Position numbers and translations under genes: made by a program. A stretch of 64,000 bases of DNA, from NCBI GenBank assembly GCA_021904315.1, contig CM038925.1:4342501-4406500 (forward strand). The letters run 5' to 3'. This document shows positions 3,301-58,800 of this stretch, in pieces; the stretch's first letter is position 1; every line of letters starts with the position of its first letter. A model generated the notes under the pieces. That model made no database searches and was not told where the DNA came from. It was given only the letters and a program-made list of their open reading frames with translations. Source of the stretch: Sphagnum magellanicum (Eukaryota > Streptophyta > Sphagnopsida > Sphagnales > Sphagnaceae).

Positions 3301-6300
3301 GTTTTGCTATATAATAGTTGACAATATGTTTAAATATTATAACCTATGATATAAATTTATAATTATATTTTAGATATTTCCTATTGCATTTGCTCCATTA
3401 AATACTAGATGTAGTAGAAGATGTACCCAAGTAACCTTAGATGATGAGGGAATAAGATTTTCCAATACATGCATAATCAAACCCTATCAAATCATTCGGG
3501 GGATTTTAGTGAGGTTACATAATACATTTTTATGTAACTATAACGAGAAGGTTTCTATGGCAATATTACATTCCAAGAATAATGACTAAATTACATTTGT
3601 GACCACCCTAAGATTGATTTCAAACTTTTAACCATGTGGGTATTGCAAATTCGGGATTGAAAAATAAAATAAGGCATGCCCATAATTGATGTTTGCACAT
3701 AAATATGAAGATATTTTCAATTAATTTTTTTAAAAATTAACTTGTTGTATTGGATTGAATCATGCATGTGGAATATGACATAACGTGTGATAGGGAAAAT
3801 ATATTGTAAATTAGGAAAATAAAAATTTGCGAAAATTCAAAATTGTATGAAAAACAAACATGGTACAAAAATATTGGTGAGACATAGAAATTTCCCACTA
3901 TAAGTTAGTCTAGAATGGCCAACATTATCCTCTGAGGTGTACCCTCATTCTAGAAAAGTCATAAGAAATGTTTTTCCAATAAGTTGCCACAACTTCTACA
4001 ACCTTTGCCATATGGTGTTGAGTGAAAAATTGTTGATGTTGAAGTGTGAGTTAGACCGCATTCACCACAAAGGCCTCTTTTGTGGTATCTTGAAGTTTAA
4101 TGACCAAAAACATTAATGTCATGATTCAAATGCACGATGAAAAAAAAAGGTTCAAAAAAAGTTAAATGCTTACAAACTTACTAGCCATGAATCATTTTGA
4201 ATTCATGGTAATTGCACATGGCTTGCATTTTCTTCTCTTGATTGGACTTGGTGGATTCAGGATTCCAATTGTGGGCATCCCATGCGAACTTAAAAGGCTT
4301 TGTGTAATCAACCTTACTCACCTAAATTGCTTTGACAAGATCATCATCCTTCTCAATCCACAAGAAGGCGTTATGTGCGATAGACCCCAACCCTCACATG
4401 GGTATGCCAATGATGTGTAACACTTTGTTGAAGGTTGATCTTATCAATAAAGATCATTGAACCTCTTTGAGGCATTGCACTTCAATTTGAAATTGACCCA
4501 CTTAGCTTCAACTTTCTTCTTCATTCAATCAATTGTTATATTTTCATTATAGGTTTGTGGTGCTTATGGGTTGCTCAAAATGCAAGCATTCATGACTTGA
4601 TTTTGTCAAAATAAATGTGTAGCTGATAGAAAAAAAGGTTTTATCAAAAGGCAAAGGTTTATTAAGAAAAGATAAAAGTTTTGCCAACAAACAAAAGGTT
4701 TTGCTAAAAGATAAAATTTTGGCCATAAATAAATATTTTTTTTGCCAATGTAATTGATATTTTGAGCAAAAGAAAAGGTTTAGCCAAAATATATATAAAT
4801 GTTTTGCCAAGCGGTACAAGTTTAACCAAGAAAAGATAAAAGTTTTATTGAAGGGTAAAGGGTTAGCCATGAAAATATAAAGGTTTTGCTAAGAAGTAAA
4901 GGTTTAGCCAAGAACAAAGAATTTTTGTCAAAAGACGAAGGTTTTATTAAGAATAAATACAAGTTTTGCCAAGTGTTAAAAGTTTAACCAAAAAGAAATA
5001 GAGGTTTTGCTGAAAAGTAAAGGTTTAACCATAAAGATATAAAGGTTTCGTTGAAAAATAGAGGTTAACTAAGGAACAATTTTAATTTTTTTGAAAAATG
5101 AAGGTTTAACCAAGAATGGGTGGGATGATAATAGGCTTGGCAAGTAAAGGTAAATGAATGGGGTGTAGGTAAGTAGCTTGGTGAATTGGGGGGTGGGTAG
5201 ATGGGAAATTTTTTTATTTATAAATAAACAGGTGAAGGAAAAAAAATGACCCAACCTCAATGCTTGCACCATGTCCAATAACTTGGACAAGTTTGAGTTC
5301 ATTGAAAATGGAATTGGTGGAGGTGTGGAAGTTGACTCACTCAAACCCAAAATGTTTAATAATAAATTTATTATTTACTTTTGGTAGCAAAAGTAATCAT
5401 AATTTATAGTTAGATGTTATGATAAATCATGAAGCTACTATGTTCAAGAGTTTCTTTCATATTTTCAACATCGCAGGTAAATATTTGTCAAAATTTTCAA
5501 CAATTCCAAAAATAATGAATTAGTGCCTAACCAACATTGGTGTTATGGTGCACATATGTTTCAACTAATTACTAAGCATCATATTTGTATTTCATTCATA
5601 CATACATTATTCATTAAACCCATTTTCAATTGTTAAACTATCAAATTGTGAAGCTAGTTAACATTGACATCAATAATCTAAACACCAATACCCAACACCA
5701 ATTTGGAAAAATTACCTTTATCATGTCATACTTTTTCAAATTCAAATCTTTTGTATTGAATATATGTTGACTGATACTTACTCCACCCACAAATTAACCA
5801 ATAAGCACTAGTTATTCATTAAATCAAAAGTGATCCATTTATTCATGTTTATTATTGTCTTAAAAGCCATGGATAATTTTCACAAACCAACATTAACTAA
5901 AACACATTTCAACAATTTATGTGCACAATCATAATACAATATATTTAATTATGATTTTAGGGTGCAGTCACAATACAACAAGTCAAAAAGGGTGTCAACC
6001 GCAAAGAAAAAAAATCAAAATTCAATAAATATTTATGTTTTGCCATTTAAAGCCATGGTAATCATAACAAGTTATTGTTTTTCATTCATATGAATGTTAA
6101 TGAATTCAAACCAAAAATACATTTGATGAAATTTTAAGTTTAAGTTTTGATTTAGGACCTTTAAATGTGCACAACAATGTGTCAAATAGGAATCAATTTT
6201 GGATTCATATAATAAAACATATTTGATGGGAAAATAATTAAGAGGATCAAAACCTATTAACCACATTAAAAAAACACTCATACCCTAAAATAAGTTGAAT

Positions 6301-7855
6301 TCAAAAACTTTAAAAATTCAATGAACTTTCCAAAATTGCTCTAGAATTTTAGAATTTCAAAAGACTTTTGCCACACATAAATGAGTTTGAATGTACATGA
6401 TGTGTTAAGAAAAGTTATAGTTTATTATACAAGAAAACAAATGTATATTTAAAAAATTGGTTATGATTTGAAATTATTATCATTTAAAAAAACGAAACAC
6501 TACATTTACAAGGAATTAAGACACTTTCAAAACTTCATATTTATTCAAAAATGATGAAGAAAAAAAAATTTCATGTACTTGAACAACTATAAACATTTAT
6601 TATAACAAGTTGCAAAAAAAATTGTTCCAAAATTCATTCATATGAAAAAGTTTTTTTTGGGAAAAAAAAATGCAATCCTTTTTTTCATTAATCATGTTAG
6701 ATCATTGTATCCTATTTGCACCCTTTTTTAGTGCATTCATTTTCTCCATGTACCATTATTAGAGAGATTGTCCAATACAAATGGATGATCATTTTCAAAG
6801 TAGATTGCATCAAATTGAACTATCTCTACACCTCAATTATTGTCCCACAAGAAGCTCCTACAAAGCATTAGTAAGCCTTTTGCATCTTTTGAGAAGTTGT
6901 GAAGTTGTCGGCACTCACTTGTGTGCACGCCTTTCACAATGCAAATTGGGAAGGAGGAGGAAGAGGGGGGAGGGGCAGGGCTAGGGGCTTCTCATCAAAT
7001 GCACTTATGCGGGTTTTTTTTTCCATAGCTTCCCCCTTAAGATTCTTTGCATCCTTAGTGAGTCACATGAGTTAGCTACTATTCACAGGTCTAGCAACTT
7101 GTGTATGGTAAAAAAATTTCCATAATCATCTTTTTTTTCTTTTTGCTCATGTTCTTGTGTAGGAAGAGATTGTATTTTTCTTGTTCCTCACTTGTGTATC
7201 TTTTTTTGTTTTGGCACATGTCAAATTTAGGGTTTGTTGTAATCCCAAAATTGTTGTTGCTTCTCCTTAGAACCATCCGAGTCTAGTTCTTCACACATGA
7301 AGTAGTATTTAGGTTCCACAAGAATTGTTCATGGTCTAGTTTTTCACAAAATTCAAATTTTAGTTCCAGTTTTGAAAATCATAAACACATAGTTTTAGTT
7401 TAGTTCTAGGTTCCACTTTGGTACATTTGATATATATACATGGGTAGTAGTACTTCCAAAAGCTTTTTGTAAGGTTTGTTAGTGCGTATAACTATGGCAA
7501 GCCCGTTTCACCATCATCAAAACATCGACGGGTATCATAACAAGAGTCCAATATTGTGATGATTTGTATGGATTGTCATGACACATCTCTGCCCCTTCAC
7601 TTGGATTCCCAACGCATCTACTTTGCCTCATTTAGTCTCTTTAGTTACACATAGTTTGTCCACACTTCCACACCTTTTCTACCTCATCAACCATGGGTTA
7701 TTCCTCAATCATTTGTACTTACATTAGGTGCCCTTCCATCCCATCAACAATGTCCATGTCCTTGTCCCGGTTGTGGTTGTGTATATGTAGTAAAAATAGG
7801 TTTAGCACGTCACCAAACATCATACATCACACATAGGCAATCATTAATTTCCAAG
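368..7855. other. 3' flank and AT-rich intergenic DNA
   Basis: The first several hundred bases are probably UXS 3' UTR and terminator. Beyond that I see AT-rich DNA with A/T runs and no coding region I can support. The short open frames here (for example near 2238-2456 and 4166-4420) have no recognisable motif and low-complexity composition. The one clear structure is the degenerate tandem repeat at 4630-5120, listed separately. Confidence 0.6.
4630..5120. repeat. degenerate tandem repeat, AAGGTTTTGCCAAGAA-like unit
   Basis: About 25 diverged copies of an 18-20 bp unit occur in succession, each resembling AAAGGTTTTGCCAAGAA or AAAGGTTTAGCCAAGAA. GCC sometimes becomes GCT, ATT or ACC. Alternating GTTTTGC and GTTTAGC versions suggest a higher-order dimer of about 36-38 bp. 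Open frames across it are a by-product of the repeat. Confidence 0.75.
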
Positions 7856-47583: not shown

Positions 47584-50500
47584 GATATTGGTTATTATAT
47601 TAAAAGTAATGAGATACAAAACAAAAACATGTTACAATGTTATTCCATACATCCACTAGTGCTTTCAATGGTTTGTCCTCATGCACATCTAACTACTTAT
47701 GGATATACATTTAATTAATTAAATTTGTTGTGAGTGTTAACGTATTTGGTTACTAATTAAACATTGTATTGCTTGCAGTTAGAATGATTAATTTGACTTC
47801 ATTGTAGTGGTCAATATACACAAATTTTCAAGAAATTTGTTTTCTATTTCTTATTTCAAAACTTTGACATTATCCATGGCCATGTCAAGCGAAAACATGA
47901 AATGAATTCAATTTCAATGGCTATTTTTCATTCATTTCTAATAACATATGGTTTTTGATTTCTAAAATAAATGTTTTATTGTTGTCAAATTGTGAGATTA
48001 ACTTTTAATTTGAAATGATAACATTTGCTTCATAGATGACTACCTTTGCATTATTTAGTAGGATGTTGATACCCAAAATAGTAATTACATATTCCTTTTG
48101 GATGAGTATGCAATTGGATTTATTTTTAGTTGAGTATCAAATCCCATTGCCAACTCTTATCGTTTAGTGATGCAACACATTTCAAATCTTTAAGGATGGT
48201 ATCAACATTTTTTAGTATGATATTATTAACAATCCTTAAATGTATATTGATTTGCTTATAGGAGTTGCTTTGGAGTTACCAAGGTCATTTTGTTGTTCAA
48301 AATATAGTAGGTTCAATTTCTTGTAGATCCAATTTCTAAGATTTTTTTCTTGGTTTATTATGCCTTCATATCATGAATTAGAGTTCTTCCAATATAATTT
48401 TAAATAATTGAATTCCCTTGTATTCTTTTTTGTTGTCATCTTTCTGCAATTTCATCTTCTTTCTTGCTCTATTTTCATATTTTGTGTTATTCTACAAATG
48501 ACAACATTCCATTTTGGGGAAAATCCGATTTCACCATTTTGGTGGGTGATTCAAAAGTTGTGTAAGTCATAGAAAAATGTTTGTTGCAATGTTTGGGCTT
48601 ATGGCTGATTCTATACACGCCTTTATGGATGTTGTTTTCAATGATAGTAAGAAAATGATTAAGGAGATCTACCAAGTTTCGGTCTCTATGGATTTTTTCA
48701 TGATAGTAATAAAATGATTAAGGAGATTCACCAAGTTTCAGTCTTTGGAAGTAATGGATTGCATTGATTGGTCATGACTACTAGTTATATAATTGTAAGG
48801 GAACAATTGTTTAAACATTCTTAGGACATGAATATAACTCCAAAGACTACAACATCCATTGCCAATGACACATTTCATGATGTGCATGTTAAGCAATAAC
48901 ATAATGATGATTCAAGGCTAGTCCCTTTGTCAAAATTGATTTTCAATGATTTGTGCGATTCATTTGATGAAGATGTGGGGTTTTTTTTTTTTTTGGCTTC
49001 CAAACCTATTGTTTCGCATTCTTGTAGGCTTCTTTTTCTTCCAACTTCCCTTTCAAGATGAAGATTCTTGGAACAATCGTGAATCCCAACAACTCTAATG
49101 TTGTTAATGTCCCCAAATGTTTTAAAACAATGTCTTTCACCCCCAATGCTTCAAATGAGTTGAGGACATTAAATTGTAACACTATCAACATGCAAAATGT
49201 TTTTTGCTTTTTGAAGAATTTTGATGGAGACATCCTTTTAGAACTTTCATCGTTGTGTCAACTCACATGCCATTCTAGTCAAATGTAAAGGATGGATAGA
49301 AAGTTCGACGACCATGTTTAGTGCAAGGTGAAGATGACCATCATTAAATATGATTTTGGATTGGGTATCCAAATTAGCAAATGCTTGGGCCACTTGTGAT
49401 GTGAAAATAACACTTGTGACTAGGTTGGTTGATCTAGTTCTCAAAATGAAGTAGCTTGGAATGGCAACTTGATTCAACTTCCATGTAGTGACCAATTTAG
49501 TGTTTCATAGTCAATGATAGTTGCAAATTTTGCAATTCTTGGGAGGAAGTTTCATTGGCAAGAAAATAAGTTTGTCCAAAAGGGAATGGTGTTGACTTGA
49601 TACTTAATAAGCATAATTAAACATTGATGAATGCAACACTTGAATTGTACATTTTTTTAATAACTTGCTATTAAAAAATTAGGTATATTGATGCAAGTTA
49701 GTGCATTGGTTCTTGATGATATGGCAAGATATGTGAAAACATCTCAATAGAGACAAGAGCTAAATGCATCAGACAATCTTTTTGGGACAAAATCCCTTGA
49801 AAGAGTTGATGCAAGAGACATGCAAACACTTTAAACATTATCCTATTCTATCCATTGGGATAAATAGATGTAGTGGAGACAAAGCTAGGTGGGATGAAAA
49901 TCAAGGAGACTTTGGAAGTAGGGAGCCTTATTGTAATCATAGAAGCACAACTAATGTTCAAAACAACAAAGCCAATGCCTATGATACAACCCAATACTAG
50001 TGGGTTAAAACTTGGACATGCCGGCCAGTACTTTTTTCCCAATATCTATGAGTGTGGTTTTTATTTCCCTATAGAGAGAACATTGCTGAGTTTTTACAGT
50101 GCTAATTTATTTGCCAAGGCATAGTGTGATCTCTTGCACAAAAAAAAATCCCTAAAGGGCAACTTTGTTTTAATCAAAATTTGTGGGTTATTCATAGAAG
50201 GCCCAAGGAAGTATGCGTTGTGCACTATGTATATGTTTTTTTGTTTGTCAATCACAATAACAACAATAAAAGAAGAAGAACATTAAATAATAATAATAAT
50301 TCAAGCCTTACCTTTACATGCTTTGGTTGTATGTATCATTTTTTCATGTATACCCACTATTGACTCTTCATGTACATGCACCACTAGAGCCACTGCTTTG
50401 TTTCAAAACTCTAAAATAAAACACCTATTTTCATTTTTTGGTAATACCAAAATAAAAAGAAGAGAACACAAGAAGAAGAAAGTTTTTTTCCCCCAAAAAA

Positions 50501-51532
50501 ACACAAATACACATTACTCAAAACCTCACACACAAATTTTTTTTTGTCTATCAATCATGACAACAAGACTAAAAAAAGAAAAACATTAGGTTTGACGAAG
50601 GACTTTATGAACATCACCATATTCTACAAGGAAGAAGACTAAAAAAAAGATGTTTTGGTTGCAAATTGAAAACAATGTAAGGAAGAAGCATCTGTTGCTA
50701 CTATATCATTAGTGGGGCTTTTTTTTTTCACTTCAACATTGCAATTAGAATTTCAAATAGAAACAAATGACTTTCATGGTTCTAAAGTTAACATCTTAAC
50801 TAGATAGACAATTTCCTTTCACTTAATTTTGGGAACTTCATTTCAACATTTCAATCAAGATTTGAGATAGAAACAACTTATGTGGATAACTTTGGAATTG
50901 CCATTCTTGGCTGCTAAAATAGGTTGTTTACACAAAGATCAATTAAATGATGAACTAACCCTCGTACACCCTACCTGTCAAAACTATTCTTAGCCTATGC
51001 ACATGACACAAAAACAAGGTTAATGACAAGCCAATGCGGGCTAATATGCCTGATATTAGCTTATCAGCGCAACGATCATGTAGAAGTGAACCTCTTGATC
51101 ATTTCGCAATAGTTTTGCGTGAGTTTGATGGTGGGTGCGACATGAGCACAATGAATAACGAAAGGATGAATAATGAAAGGAATTTCTTACCTCATGACTA
51201 AAAAAACCATTAAACTTATTAGGGCTGTGAAAAATGGCGTAGTGCCCATAGAAAACCCAGAGACTGTAAAGAACAAAATTCATTTTAAAAACTCTAGAGA
51301 GTAAAGATTGTCAAAAAAGTCCAAAGAACATAGAGCTCAATGCTTAGTACATTTGACATCATGAGTTCTCCTTGCAATGCATTTGCAAGAGCTTGCCCAC
51401 CTATAGTAGCTCATGTAGCAGTTCATCCATTTTCCATAGTTCCACATTCCTCCCCTATGAATGTGGGGGAGCATCTACCTTATAGTTTTTAGGTTACTTG
51501 CTTGATGGGTAAGAAGAAGTCTTGCATCACAT
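45581..51532. other. VAP27 3' flank and AT-rich intergenic DNA
   Basis: No gene was recognised. The first few hundred bases are probably VAP27 3' UTR. It includes two imperfect tandem copies of about 80 bp at 46860-47015, a (TA)n run at 47550-47581 and a two-copy repeat at 48625-48746. 48.5-50 kb contains short coding-like fragments that might be old retroelement remnants, but I cannot identify a domain. Confidence 0.55.
48625..48746. repeat. about 60-bp tandem duplication
   Basis: Two adjacent copies (48625-48687 and 48688-48746) share ATGATAGTAA, AAAATGATTAAGGAGAT and CACCAAGTTTC-type words, differing by substitutions and a 4-base length change. Confidence 0.8.
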
Positions 51533-52243
51533 GTGGAGGAGACAAAGGCTTTGGAATTAGGGTTTTCCAAAGAAGATGTGGTAGGCAAAAAAGAACATGT
51601 TGGGAGATCATGGACAAATGCTAGTTTTTTGTGCTTGTTAAACCTTGTGGAGAAATATTGGGGATATAATTGCAAGCCATCTAAGGAGAGCAATTGGAAA
51701 ACATTCGTAGATGCTATGAATGCAAATTTTCCAAATGATGTGCGATGGAATTGGAAGCAAGTTCAAGACAAGTGGAACAAAATGAAGAAGATCTATGAAA
51801 CATAAAAGAATAAGATTGAGGTAACTAGTGCATCTCCATTTGATTGGCCATGGTTTGAACGTTTTGACAACATTTTTTCTAGTATTGCCACAATAAATGG
51901 CATACCTAATGCCATAGATCAAGGTGTGAGTGTGATGAATTCTGATATTGAAGTTATGAATGTTAATGATGAAGAGGATGTCCAAACACTTCAAATGCCC
52001 AGTAGATGTAAGAGACAAACTCCTATGTTTGAAGATGACAATACAAATGTTGGAACTACCTTATTAGTTAATTTTGATAGCCTTACAACTAGGGCATGCA
52101 AGTTACTTAGTGTGCAAGGGAAACCTAATAAGAAGCTAGAGAGGAAAAGGAAGTGGTTGTCCATAGTTTCATCTACAATTGCAGATGCCATTAATAATTT
52201 CACACATGTGATGAAAGACATTGAATTAAAAAAATGGAGATGA
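51533..52243 (+). pseudogene. Harbinger SANT/Myb-like DNA-binding protein, one in-frame stop
   Basis: A single frame of 237 codons is broken only by TAA at 51803-51805. The N-terminal trihelix/SANT-like region has conserved tryptophans: GRSWTNASFLCLLNLVEKYW, then SNWKTFVDAMN, WNWKQVQDKWNKMKKIYE, and SPFDWPWFERFD after the stop. A C-terminal basic segment (KLERKRKWLS) precedes the final TGA. In this superfamily the partner protein binds element ends and helps import the transposase. The single stop suggests recent inactivation. Confidence 0.75.
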
Positions 52244-52382
52244 CAAAATTCATCACATTTCAAATGTTGCAAAATGAAGAGAAATGCAAACAAATGATGA
52301 TACAAGGTCAATTGCAGTTGGTTGCTTTGTTTATAAATGTGTTGAAACAAAAGACCACAAATGGTAGTGGTAGTAGTGGCAA

Positions 52383-53923
52383 TCTTATATATTAAAGCTA
52401 CAATGTTTGTCTGTTTGTCTGTTCGGGCAGTTTCCAGGCACTGCCCGGACCTTTGTTTTTTTGTTTTTTTTGATGGGTTTTGTTTTCTGTGTCAGTTAAA
52501 CTGCCCGGACCTTTGTTTTTTTGTTTTTTTTAATGGGTTTTGTTTTCTGTGTCAGTTAAACTGCCCGGACCTTTGTTTTTTTTTTTGATGGGTTTTGTTT
52601 TCTATGTCAGTTAAACTGCCCGGACCTTTGTTTTTTGTTTTTTTTTTTGATGGGTTTTGTTTTCTGTGTCAGTTAAATTGCGATAGTTCCTAAATAACTG
52701 TCCGTTCGTCTGTGAAAGAAAGCGAGCGTTTTGCAACGTTTTGCTGGCGATGGTGGGGGATCAGAGAAGGAGTGAGAGAGCAAAAAGTTTCTGAGATTTC
52801 TTTTCAGCAACAAGAGAATTTTTTGCAGCACCCAGATAATTCTTTGCAGCAAGAAGAGGCTTTGTTTATAGCTATAAAAGAATTTGTTTGCAGCAGCAAG
52901 AAATTTTATTTACAGCAACAAGAGATTTTCTTTGCAACAGCAAAAGATTGGAACTTCAAAGAAAGAATTCAGAGAGCATGAAGTGTTTCATCCTCCGCAA
53001 CCAAAGGGAAGGACACAAATGAGAGCAAGACGAATTGAATTTCTTGAAACTAAAGCCATCCAAAGTGCGTACCAGATCGAAGAAAAGACACGCACATTTC
53101 CAAACCCCGAGTGATTTCCGGGGTGTGCTCAACCAAATTTTTGCAACAACAAAAACATACTCCACGTGCGGCTTCACTCATCGAAATCATAGCTGCAAAA
53201 ACAACAACCTGAAAAGGACAAATCCTTTGCTTCAATAGCCGAGTGCAGGCCTAATTTTGGTAATGCCCTCCCACCAAGATTGTAACATAAATCTGCTTTC
53301 AAATCAGATTTTCAAATCTGTGAGTTGAATAGCAATTACAACACCTGAGTTTGAAAACCCTAAATAGAGATATGAATCAAACAGGAACTGCAGCTATTTG
53401 TGCTTAGGAAATTCAACATTGAAACATTTCATTCCAACGGCACTGGCCAAGATCAGCAACAACACTAATGATGGTCTCAGAGTTGAGACCATGAACACAC
53501 CCATCTTTCCTCCCACTTCTGCAGCAACTTGGAGTGACATGACTACAGTGGTGGGTACAACAAATCAAGCTTCCTCCTTGACAGCAGGAACAAGAAGAAA
53601 AAATCTTATACCTCCACTCAACATGTTTTCTTGGTGCAGAAACTTTCTCAAGAAACTTCCTTTAAGAAGATTTGAAATTCAGAAATCTATAGCGAAATCG
53701 GAAACACAGACAGAAACAACGGAGGATTGAAGCAAAGTTTTCTGACAGTCCAGTGCTTTTCAGCCACGATTCTGTTCCAGAAATCGATTTCCTTTGCAGT
53801 CATACACAGAACAGGTTGCAATTCTTGGTCTTGCGCATGCAAATCTGAAGGAAGGAAAGACTTCATTCCCATTCATTTTTGGGGAAGCTCGACGGGTGCA
53901 TTATGCACCAGGTTCACATTAGT
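52383..53923 (+). mobile_element. candidate non-autonomous Helitron inserted in the Harbinger element
   Basis: The 5' end reads A|TCTTATATATTAAAGC, close to plant Helitron starts (TC plus TATTAAA-like). Near the 3' end a perfect hairpin GGTGCAT-T-ATGCACC (53895-53909) is followed after nine bases by TTAGT and then a T, resembling the Helitron hairpin plus CTRRT|T end with C changed to T. Insertion between A and T with no target duplication fits the mechanism. It codes for no Rep/helicase. Interior features are a 60-bp minisatellite and a Gln/CAGCAA-rich stretch (52780-52950). Both ends are short signals, so this is an inference. Confidence 0.5.
52441..52678. repeat. about 60-bp minisatellite, four copies
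   Basis: Units start CTGCCCGGACCTTTG at 52441, 52501, 52561 and 52616, each with a T-rich middle, GATGGGTTTTGTTTTCT and GTGTCAGTTAAA. Units 1 and 2 are 60 bases; later ones vary in T-run length. Confidence 0.95.
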
Positions 53924-54025
53924 TGATTAAAAGGAGTTAATTATGACAATTGATTTTGATTTATATTTCCATTTGTGAGAATAAAAACTTGAATTTCATT
54001 TCAAAATTCATCTTATATTACTTTG

Positions 54026-55200
54026 TCATGTTACAATTGGATTTTCAATCATCCATTGTTCAAAAAAATCTCTCTTTAATCTTTCACCTTTTACTTTTGC
54101 TTGCTTTCCTTTTTTAATAGTAGGTAATCTATTAACACCAAACCCCATTAAGTTGTCACCTCTTATTTTTGCATTTGCCAATTTAAGCTCCAATGCACCC
54201 CACATTTCACAATAGTTGTGAAGTACACAACAAGCAATTGTAATTGGTAATGTTTTATCAACTCTAGAATTAAAATGTTTCGAAATTCTCCATCTATTTT
54301 TCAAATAACCAAATGCATTTTCTATGACCACCCTCCTTAAATTCATGTTGGAATCATATCTTGTCTTGTCCACATTTGTAGGATTATGAATCTTGCAATT
54401 TTTTTGTAAGTGGGTAAATTGGATAAATTGCATCACCAATTAAAAATGGAATGCATATCATACCTTGAATAGTAACAACTGATTCTTGGAAAATTTCCCT
54501 AGACCTCAATTGTGCATATAGCCTACATCTTTTGAACTGCCCACCATCCTATACCCCTCCAGGTTGGCTAGCACAAACATTCCAAAAGATTTTGTTTGCA
54601 TCACACACGGCTTGCAACACAATACTATGGAACTTTTTCCTATTGAAAAAATCACCAATAGCAAGTGTAACTTTCTTGCTTGGAAGGTTTGCCAAAAGAA
54701 TGTGAATTCCATCTATAGCTCCACAAATGTTAGGTATACCTATAAGATTTTCAAAACAAATAATGACGTCCTTCAAGTGTTGACATGAAGGAATACTAAT
54801 GTATTTGCTAAACAATTTGTTTTTGTCAATTAGCACATCACAAACAATGTCAACATATTTTCTAATTGTTGATGCACCCACATTGAATCGATCAACCATA
54901 AGTGTAGCACTAAATCCATGAGCAAATCGATAGATCAATAGCCACAATCTTTTTAATTTCTAATTGTGGCCTAACGGGGGGTTTAAACAACTTGATTGCA
55001 AAAAATGTGTCAACTGGAAAATTAGGTTATTAAAAGTTTCAAAACTCACTCTATAATGCAACAAAAATTTCCTATCTCTTATTTCAGGTGTGGTATGCCA
55101 TGCATTGGTTTCCACAAGGTCCTAATGCGTGTATTGTTTAGGTTCTTTCCACCAAAAACGTGATGGATGTCTCCTCCCATTCACACCAGCCAAAAGCATT
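54026..55200 (-). pseudogene. PIF/Harbinger DDE transposase (HARBI1-like), frameshifted
   Basis: Reading right to left, the N-terminal region (about 55195-54970) gives VNGRRHPSRFWW, then WHTTPEIRDRKFLLHYRVSF, with stops. The core 54947-54549 gives VGASTIRKYV, LKDVIICFENLIGIPNICGA with IDG (first Asp), and FNRKKFHSIVLQAVCDA. An in-frame TAG near 54548 is followed by DGGQFKR and LIGDAIYP (second Asp). A frameshift near 54440 leads to 54439-54026 with VIENAFGYLKNRWRIS (catalytic Glu) and TIACCVLHNYCE. The three catalytic acidic residues of the DDE_4 transposase fold are therefore still visible, but the frame is broken by several stops and at least one shift. Confidence 0.85.
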
Positions 55201-55428
55201 GGAAAGACATTGAACTTATTATACTCCCATCTAAACTGAAAAGCACGTTATGCACTTTAGATTTAGATGTTGCACAATCCCCCAATGTAACAGAAAGTAA
55301 CATCCAAACGAGAAATACTTGTCCAAGTGAGACTAGATCCATGATCACAAATTTTGAAAAACAACACAAAATAACCCTAAAATAATGAAATGCTCTAAAA
55401 GAGTCCCAAAACAATGCAAATTCACCCC

Positions 55429-55429
<1 letters not shown>

Positions 55430-55464
<35 letters not shown>
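55430..55464 (+). repeat. 35-base poly(A) run
   Basis: An uninterrupted A run lies between the transposase remnant and the CWC25 promoter. It could be a retroposition tail, but I see no associated retrogene on its 5' side. Confidence 0.85.
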
Positions 55465-55466
<2 letters not shown>

Positions 55467-55656
55467 TCTACAAACCGATTAAAATTCTTTAAAGCATCCT
55501 TTATACTCTTGAAAAAAAATAGAAAAAAAAAATAGTGACCACAACTAAACAAAACTTGAGAGAATGAGAGCTGCTCTAGACCTGCGTGTAGATTCCGTAA
55601 AAAAGTCCATTTTACTAAAGCAGGGCAGTGCATGGGCAGTGTGTGGCTGCCCTGGG

Positions 55657-55738
55657 CCAGCGGATAGCCCGGGTTGAGCGGCCCACTTCAGGCAAATATG
55701 CCTGCCCTGACCGCTGCATGTGCCCAGGCTATCTGCCC
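55657..55738. repeat. imperfect GC-rich inverted repeat upstream of CWC25
   Basis: The centre is CAGGCA-AATA-TGCCTG (55689-55704). Outer arms pair loosely: GGATAGCCCGGG near 55661-55672 against CCCAGGCTATCTG near 55723-55735, and GAGCGG against CCGCTG. It is a GC-rich island in AT-rich DNA and could be a short foldback element or a promoter structure. Confidence 0.55.
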
Positions 55739-55889
55739 GTCTGGGTTGCGTGGAGAACTCGAGTTAGGGTTCGAGTTAGGGCTTGATGGCTCTCTTCCCT
55801 TCTCAGAGCGCTTGTTGTGGCCCGTCTCTCGTCGTATTCTGCAGTGAGGTCTTCTGCAGAGGTGATCACCGGGTTTGAGGCTGTTGGCG

Positions 55890-58800
55890 ATGGCTTTGAA
55901 GTTTCTGAACAAGAAGGGATGGCACACAGGAAGTCTGAGGAACATCGAGACGGTCTGGAAAGCGGAGCAGAAGCATGAGGCGGAGCAAAAGAAGTTGGAA
56001 GAATTGAAGAAACAGATCAATGACGAGCGTGAAGCTTCGGAGTTTCGTCTCCTCCAAGAACAAGCCGGCTTGGCCCCGTAAGCAGCTTCTTGGAATGATT
56101 TTCCTCTTTGCGCAGTCTTTTTCGCCCATCCTTCTTGTAGTCTTGCCGAAAGGAATCATCTACTGTTCGATTCTTGTTTAAGCCTGCCGTTTGGCCCCTC
56201 TCTATTTCTACCTTCTTTTATCCTTCCTCTACATCCACCGGAGATTTTCTTCCTCGGACTTTGATGATGGAGTTGTTGCAATTAGGTTGTACTTTTGTGA
56301 TGCAGATCGGCAAGCTCCCTTTCTTGCATGTAGTTTTTCCTATTTCGGATTTATCATGGATCCTTGCACGAAGCAGGGCGGCAACAAAGGTGCTGTTCAA
56401 TATGTGAAATATTTCAGAGACTGCATACTTTGGGGGCCTTTGCTATGTGTTGTTAGGGTACCAAGCGCTCTACACATAGAGATCTCTGTGAAGCTGCAGC
56501 TTGAATTCATCTGTGGGCTTTGCAGCAGAGCACCCAAACTATGTCACAATCTAGTGATTACTAGCTTTCAGGAGGTCTTCAACTAGACAAATTTGTATAT
56601 ACTACTATTCATACATTCTCCTCCTCATTGTTACAATTCATGCATAGTACAATTTTCAGATCTGCAAGATCTCATGGCAGTTCTGTTGTGATGCTTATTC
56701 AGATCAAAGTCCACCCAGTGCTCAGGCCATGAGAGTCTGGTTCACCAAGTTGCAAAGCCATTGTACTATAAGCTGGACTGGAACTATGGAAACTTCTTAT
56801 TCATGATTTAGTTGCACGTTTTTGACCCTAAGCTTAGTACCCTATATGGAAACAATTTTCATTGAAGGGTGTATAGATATGGAAGTTGTGTGAGGTATTG
56901 ATGCCAATCTTAAATTTGCAGGAGGCAGGAGCGATTGGAGTTTCTGTATGATGCAGGGCTACAAGTTGGAAAGACTTCATCAACAGATGAATACCTTTTG
57001 GGAAAGCCTGTGGAGGTTGCCGCAGAGGAGAATCAAATTTCCAAGGTATTAGATTCATACTGTTACTCTCACCTATTAGTCTTTGGCCCGGATCATTACC
57101 TGAGACACAGGCTGTTTTAAAGTCTTGATTTCTGGGAACTTTTAGAGTGCGAGTAGTCCTCATTTTCATACATGCCAGGACAAGGGGTTCCATTTGGAAT
57201 TCGTAGTTCAGATGGGGGGCTTTTACATATGAGACTGGTTGCTCTGATTGGGATAGTCCCGTGAGAAAAAAAAAACTTACACTGTCTGGTGAGCTCTGGT
57301 TTGTTTCAATCCTCCAGATACTTTTGTATTGCTGCTGGTTCTTTGTCTCCACTCTCTCTAGAAGATTCTGACAGCCCTTCACAAATGCTTGTCTATGGTA
57401 ATCAGGTAGCATCAGCACCTGGTTCATTGTTTGTTGAGGAGAAACCAGTGTCTGCAAATGATACATGGAGGAAGTTGCATTCAGATCCACTGTTGTTGAT
57501 CAGGCAGCAAGAGCAAGCAGCATTAGCACGTATCAAAAACAATCCTGTCAAAATGGAACAATTAAGAAAAGAGGTACAGTCCCTTCTCCATTTTGATTGT
57601 AGTTAGTATTTAGAGTATGGCTGCCTGATACATTCTGTTTCCTCACCCACTCCACCTGTGTCCTTGCATTCCTCTTGCTCTTCCCAACTGAAGCATGGGA
57701 TCTATGGACATGGCTAGGGCAGGTGTAGTTTCATTACAGCAATTACTTGCTCTTCCATAGTTATTTTGCTCCTGCATGCATTTCATTGCCTTGTCACAAC
57801 TCTTGTTGTGATGTGCAGGTGGAGATGAAGAAGAAAGCTAAAGAGGACAAGAAAAGGAAGAAAGAGGCCAAACAGCAACATAAAGACAAAAATCGAAAGA
57901 AAAGACATAGGAGCAGCAGTGAGGAGTCCTCAGAACCTGACCAGAGTAGAGCAAGATCTGGTAGTGCCAACTACCATGACATTGGGACCAGAAAACGGGA
58001 AATTTACACTCACAGCAATAAGCAGGATAACTATGGAGACACACCCAATGGAAGATCACCTGACCCTAGAGATAGGAGACATAACATCAACCGATCAGAT
58101 AATGCACATGACATACATGGTAACAGTGATCGAAAGGGCAGGCATGGCCATCCAGCAGATGCATATGATGATGGATACCAAAGACACAGAGATGACCGCA
58201 TAGAGGGTGTTGACCGAAAACGTAGCAGGCATTACTATCCAGAAGATGCATATGCTATTGGTGACAGAAAACATAGAGATGGCCATATAGAGGATGCGGG
58301 GGATTTAAGGTCAAATGATGGTGGCAGTCAAAGGGAGAGGCATGGCCACTCAGTGAATGCACATCATTCAGAGTCACTTGACAGGGAGAAGAATCAAAGG
58401 TCTGGCTCATTCCGGGATTCAAGGGAGCCAAAATTACAGGCTAAGGATCATTTGCACAGCTCAATGGGAGGATGTTCAAAAGACATAGCAGGAAGTAGGG
58501 AGAATGACCACTCTGGTGTGATGGTGGGTAAGCGTCTGTCTGAGCAGAATCAAGAGATTGGTACTGGAGAGGCAGTTCTGCACGCTCAGCTGCCACCCAG
58601 GCCCACTCCAAGGGCAAAACATAAAGCGGCTCCAATGTCTGATGCTGAGAGAGCAGCTCGTCTTTTGGAAATGCAGGACAATGCTGACCTACATGAAGAG
58701 CAAAGGTGGCATCGCTTGAAACATGCAGCAGATGCTGATATTGCTGAGTTAAAGAAAACTTCAGAAATAAAGCCGAATCAGGATTTCATGCTAGACACTC

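Follow-up and report, generated by a model that had tools for sequence, protein, structure and literature searches.

A non-autonomous Helitron nested in a degraded PIF/Harbinger transposon of Sphagnum magellanicum

Positions 52383-53922 of the window, i.e., of the whole stretch of 64,000 nucleotides that was analysed (G000:C19:4342501-4406500), are almost certainly a non-autonomous Helitron of 1540 bp, inserted between an A and a T inside a degraded PIF/Harbinger transposon. The genome searched was an assembly of 438,994,042 bases in 31 contigs. A preliminary description of this DNA had proposed a Helitron-like element nested in a PIF/Harbinger transposon, and both the empty Harbinger sites and the dispersed copies that carry the two Helitron ends bear this out. 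It is a clear nested insertion, the precise empty site of which is present many times within one genome. Coordinates of the features are collected in Table 1.

Table 1. Features of the Helitron and its Harbinger host (window coordinates; slashes in motifs mark the junctions with host DNA)
Feature	Position	Strand	Evidence
Degraded PIF/Harbinger hosting the Helitron	50991..55731	.	homology limits of six sibling loci; imperfect TIRs
Left flanking TCT, probable target duplication	50988..50990	.	matched by TCT at 55732-55734
Right flanking TCT, probable target duplication	55732..55734	.	matched by TCT at 50988-50990
Harbinger ORF1 remnant, putatively Myb/SANT-like, interrupted	51506..52382	+	PF13837 on 51506-51805; stops
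Harbinger DDE transposase remnant, interrupted	54026..55247	-	PF13359 on two pieces
Host A of the A/T target	52382..52382	+	A in 28/28 elements; present in 15 readable empty sites
Non-autonomous Helitron, mosaic of family A ends and a family B body	52383..53922	+	empty sites; copies with both ends
5' terminal sequence TCTTATATATTAAAGCTACA...	52383..52442	+	motif of host A + first 20 bases: 484 matches in the genome, 1 in the control
Minisatellite, about 4 units of ~55-62 bp	52440..52681	+	unit number differs among family A copies
Body common to Helitron family B (element 300-1502)	52682..53884	+	92-96% to ten B copies over element 338/346-1501/1502
254-bp stretch matching a host-gene ORF	53435..53688	+	92% to the gene (L045) at G000:C13:16904178-16906094, upstream of the SRA-domain ORF
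Terminal hairpin GGTGCATTATGCACC	53895..53909	+	ends 13 bases before the element end; 1013 genome matches to the 3' end, control 0
3' terminus TTAG (family: CTAG)	53919..53922	+	CTAG in the other 27/28 elements
Host T of the A/T target	53923..53923	+	retained in 15/15 readable empty sites; common to Helitron and Harbinger matches in junction searches

Insertion site and boundaries

The empty sites were collected with the left Harbinger flank as a query (best 40 of 54 candidates scored). Twenty loci were cut out, among which L047 is the window itself while L060 and L066 represent one place, leaving 18 other loci. In 15 of them the alignment runs through the insertion point with neither an insert nor a target duplication (mostly GGCAA/TTGATTA), and each of the 15 has A before the junction and TTG after it; the element is thus fixed at 52383-53922 without target duplication. 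The remaining three loci are unreadable, one because of a deletion across the junction (L057) and two (L059 and L063) for want of a useful alignment. The preliminary description had suggested looking for Harbinger copies joined at A/T, which these 15 are. It had named copies owning the interior as a refutation, and the interior is absent from every readable locus.

Every one of the 15 readable empty sites retains T 53923, which puts the last base of the element at 53922. The left edge initially proposed (52383) stands, while the right edge (53923) was one base too far and included host DNA. Similarly, the placement between the two Harbinger genes does not hold strictly, as the Helitron breaks up the final codons of the Myb-like ORF1 (frame of 52225-52395). 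In its uninterrupted form this ORF closes with GGC AAT TGA, and the empty site reads Asn-stop at the insertion point.

Searches with the two junctions gave a concordant picture. In the left search (junction after query position 120; best 40 of 503 candidates), six Harbinger rows end at 121 and the Helitron rows begin at 114-129, with one exception at 102. In the right search (best 40 of 343), the Harbinger rows start at 121 (13 rows), 118 (two), or 142 (one), and the rows carrying the family A 3' end stop at 121-135, position 53923 being common to both homologies. Homology running continuously through a junction, which the preliminary description had named as a refutation, was found nowhere except in the window itself among these best 40 of 503 and best 40 of 343. 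Elsewhere, matches overrun the left junction by up to 18 bases and the right one by up to 14. Two left overruns were inspected, C13:9554991 (18 bases) and C1:15926747 (6 bases); the former, which corresponds to the exceptional row at 102, shows GTAGTGG-like similarity over about 13 bases, beyond which it is not Harbinger. Both look like chance matches.

Termini and the Helitron family

The bases on which the preliminary description relied are present: A followed by TCTTATATATTAAAGC at 52382/52383, and, at 53895-53909, the hairpin GGTGCAT-T-ATGCACC, after which come AGGTTCACATTAG and T. As read in the window, the sequence after the hairpin is AGGTTCACATTAGT. Single-stranded DNA of 53870-53923 is predicted to fold at -8.2 kcal/mol, a value equalled by none of 200 shuffles (z -3.5). 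The 16-base start occurs once in the window at up to 1 mismatch. Terminal inverted repeats are absent, in that the first 15 bases do not match the reverse complement of the last 15, and none of the 25 longest of 163 inverted repeats within 48000-58000 joins the two Helitron ends. A Pfam search with the four ORFs of the Helitron gave no match. Within the body, a degenerate 21-22-bp repeat (TTTGCAGCAACAAGAGATTT-like) recurs about six times in a row at 52797-52939.

When 52383-53923 was compared with the genome, at least 84 matching stretches were obtained (best 40 of 593 candidates scored), and a single other copy among them, C6:6097043-6098555, is full length (89% identity). Many copies are short and have in common positions 1-299 and 1506-1541, with a varying number of units of the ~60-bp repeat. 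The ends of 31 elements were examined; L015, L025, and L026, in each of which one end could not be located, were left out, giving a set of 28 with the window included. The base preceding the element is A in 28/28 and the base following CTAG/TTAG is T in 28/28, in line with the A/T insertion context initially suggested. The family A copies were found with a query that includes T 53923, which favours T at this position for them; the B copies are exempt from this bias. The second base after the end is mixed (A in 17, T in 4, C in 4, and G in 3 elements). A TC start is present in 23 of the 28, the exceptions being L018, L020, L022, L031, and L040, for the first four of which the start position is an extrapolation over 2-5 bases. 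The 3' end is CTAG in 27 of the 28; the window copy combines a TC start with TTAG, one base off the CTRR terminus that the family shows. The five deviating starts and the TTAG of the window copy count against the Helitron reading.

The dispersed copies carry both ends in different flanks, and no similarity between flanks of different copies was seen at E 1e-6 across the 28 elements. The sole flank match in this comparison is within L038, whose own 5' and 3' flanks are similar. From the end and flank bases across the 28 elements, the family boundary is A/TC...CTAG/T. Across the genome, 484 matches (control, 1) were counted for the 5' motif, made up of host A and the 20 bases after it (at most 1 mismatch), and 1013 (control, 0) for the 3' motif (at most 2 mismatches). 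These counts document a peat-moss Helitron family whose 3' ends number about a thousand.

Two other accounts of the insert have to be weighed against these data. The interior might be native Harbinger sequence between convergent genes, with coincidental Helitron-like ends; it does lie between the remains of two Harbinger genes, and its four ORFs are without Pfam matches. Yet 15 of the 18 sibling loci are devoid of the segment at the exact point, and the segment or its ends recur elsewhere in other flanks. This account is extremely improbable and was rejected on the evidence of the empty sites. Alternatively, the insert could belong to another type, such as a SINE or a TIR element too decayed to be recognised, which would agree with its non-coding nature, its length of ~1.5 kb, and its many short copies. 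Such an origin is contradicted by the window's own site, which according to the empty loci bears no target duplication, by the lack of inverted repeats at the two ends (see above), by the recurrence of A/TC...CTAG/T with the 3' hairpin across copies, and by the sharing of the 5' end with Rep-domain loci (see below). Other insertion types were likewise rejected on the empty sites, and we give them practically no credence. The insert is best regarded as a Helitron.

Mosaic structure

Family B elements are 1764-1830 bp long and have the form A/TCTTATATAT...GTGTCCGAAGGACAC...CACTAG/T; one copy starts with TT. Positions 338-1502 of the window element match ten family B copies at 92-96%. The window element is a mosaic, in which the ends of Helitron family A surround the body of family B. 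The same arrangement, A ends around a B body, is found in L009 and L010, and L015 is a 5'-truncated relative. L014 is a hybrid with a diverged A 5' end and a B 3' end. About 400 bp adjoining a partly repeated segment are retained in family B and in L010 and are missing in the window and L009. A tree of the body (14 rows), built to see whether the window, L009, and L010 form one group, had no well-supported branch, and therefore the number of end exchanges cannot be read from it.

A third repeat group is represented by L043:4128-6043 and L044:4067-5986, with ~373 bp of the body in common. In L044, a family B 5' end lies just upstream (4030-4083), and in L043, a family A 3' end lies downstream (6674-6716), due to which this group is probably another mosaic Helitron. 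The series of A, B, A-ended B, and the hybrid L014, together with the shared SRA-gene fragment described below, makes a tractable system for studying terminus exchange.

A fragment shared with an SRA-domain gene

In one respect the Helitron is unusual: a fragment of its body also occurs in a host gene that belongs to a gene-silencing protein family (G000:C13:16904178-16907096). The fragment (element positions 1053-1306) has its match in L045, within a 639-codon ORF (P0001). The ORF after P0001 encodes an SRA domain (PF02182, E=1.1e-42), closest to the structures of SUVH4, SUVH9, SUVH5, and SUVH6 (E 7e-32 to 2e-27), with UHRF1 at 3e-12. P0001 has 25 matches in the genome (30/30 candidates scored). 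Only one of them covers its full length, and the remaining 24, among them the window, are confined to residues 375-509. The third group (L043, L044, and also L033) has the fragment together with adjoining sequence.

This distribution suggests that the Helitron lineage probably captured the 254-bp fragment from the SRA-domain gene. The reverse direction, in which the gene gained a coding piece from the Helitron, seems unlikely, though it has something in its favour: the fragment edges are sharp in both the gene and the Helitron, the left edge in Helitron groups B and C nearly coincides with that in the gene, and 9 positions within the fragment (5 synonymous and 4 non-synonymous) distinguish the gene from both B and C. 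On the other hand, among the 25 matches only the gene has the fragment in a long open frame (639 codons against at most 152 in the others), and capture usually leaves a single gene alongside numerous truncated copies in transposons, as in the maize examples described in the parts of PMC3288121 consulted. Capture by the Helitron is therefore the preferred reading.

It is conceivable, but very doubtful, that the copies of the body spread a fragment of the SRA/SUVH-like gene, that small RNAs from these copies could act on this gene and so interfere with silencing of the element, and that the body moves between families by exchange of both ends. If this were true, the Helitron would interfere with silencing aimed at itself, given that proteins of the SUVH-like family place or read the marks by which transposons are silenced.

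The Harbinger host

Homology with six sibling loci begins at 50988-51000, and in three of the six it extends to 55731-55735. At these limits lie imperfect 15-base TIRs, TAGCCTATGCACATG and TAGCCTGGGCACATG, agreeing at 13/15 positions. Both genes are broken. On 51506-51805, PF13837 scores 21.6 bits (E=3e-4), under the curated cut-off of 27. PF13359 is detected on 54026-54439 (E=1.6e-5) and 54549-54959 (9.7e-4), with 25.0 bits on one piece (cut-off 24.8) and 19.2 on another, and there is no PF13359 match on 54960-55121. The target duplication of PIF/Harbinger elements is usually TTA/TAA, 3 bp. Here the 3-bp flanks are TCT in the window, AAT in L068 and L069 (these two share flanks), and TCT versus TTT in L067; they are unreadable in L070 and L071. 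The element resembles plant PIF/Harbinger transposons in its convergent DDE_Tnp_4 transposase and putative Myb-like ORF1, its short TIRs, and its 3-bp flanking repeat, but differs from them in the sequence of this repeat (TCT, or AAT in one sibling pair) and in the interruption of both genes.

In the interval 55731-56081, about 160 bases separate the end of the right TIR from the first ATG of an exon that encodes a Cir_N domain (PF10197, E=1.8e-16), which places the nested pair in the upstream region of a gene. To the left of the Harbinger, at 48635-48744, there are two 51-bp copies with 88% identity, 59 bp apart from start to start.

Sibling alignments longer than 600 bp show 81.9-87.1% identity to the window copy (six Harbinger copies; shorter alignments, 69-92%), i.e., a divergence of ~13-18%, while 13 Helitron bodies show 94.2-96.7% identity, or a divergence of 3.3-5.8%. 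The difference is in keeping with the Harbinger being older than the Helitron, which is the age order proposed at the outset.

A possible RepHel partner and the proposed movement

The genome contains at least 150 matches to Helitron_like_N over the cut-off (best 150 of 576 candidates scored, 150/150 over). For five of the 56 Rep loci on C1-C5, the shared 5' end lies upstream, on the same strand and no more than 10 kb away; none has it on the opposite strand, and none downstream (the first 100 listed of the 484 5' ends were used). Random placement gave a mean of 0.18 Rep loci, and none of 2000 trials reached five. Downstream stretches of two such loci, L073 and L074, contain pieces of a PIF1 helicase and then ...ACCCACTAG/T; each has one CACTAG/T, with nearly identical 45 bases before it, giving spans of ~7.3 and ~7.0 kb. 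Their 3' ends are without the family A hairpin, and a scan found no perfect 6-9-bp stem before CTAG. The lack of this hairpin in both RepHel loci read counts against a firm assignment of the enzyme that moves family A.

The following course of events is proposed. A Helitron from a high-copy family almost certainly inserted between an A and a T, close to where ORF1 ends, in an older, decaying PIF/Harbinger. By analogy with other Helitrons, a RepHel protein made elsewhere would nick at the 5' TC, the helicase would peel off one strand, the 3' hairpin would signal the stop at CTAG, and the peeled strand would be joined into the AT site. The present copy goes back to a mosaic of family A ends around a family B body, the gene fragment of which was most likely captured from the SRA-domain host gene.

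Comparison with known Helitrons

The word Helitron is absent from the main text of the Sphagnum genome paper (PMC9946827) by term search, and a literature search covering parts of the sources returned no report of a Sphagnum Helitron family or of Helitron capture of a SUVH-like gene. In PMC8616336, the passages on SUVH and on Helitrons, located by word search, are unrelated.

Rice DHH_Mothra, according to the sections of PMC4683698 consulted, is a non-autonomous Helitron of 1.3-2.7 kb with TC...CTAG ends, a 16-bp hairpin 13 bp before the end, tandem-repeat blocks of varying number, a gene fragment, and A/T insertion without duplication. The window Helitron has the same anatomy, including the tandem repeats and the gene fragment (PMC4683698), but it resides in another host, and its body is common to a second family with different ends.

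For the maize helA/helB Helitrons, the portions of PMC3288121 seen describe stepwise capture of gene fragments, multiple termini, and new Helitrons arising from nested copies. The window start fits the helB 5' motif ATC[TGA]....[TC][AC]TTAAAA except for the last base, while the 3' hairpin of helB differs in sequence from that of the window Helitron (PMC3288121).

In Helraiser/Helibat1, as far as the parts of PMC4778049 consulted describe it, TC is joined to A and CTAG to T, a 3' palindrome 11 nt before the end serves as a terminator, and the 3' end can be bypassed. The family of the window Helitron shares the TC...CTAG ends, the A/T joining, and the 3' palindrome. Unlike the window Helitron, Helraiser is autonomous, comes from bats, and has had its activity tested experimentally (PMC4778049). 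Both end exchange and gene-fragment capture are already known for Helitrons, and the window Helitron fits these known patterns.
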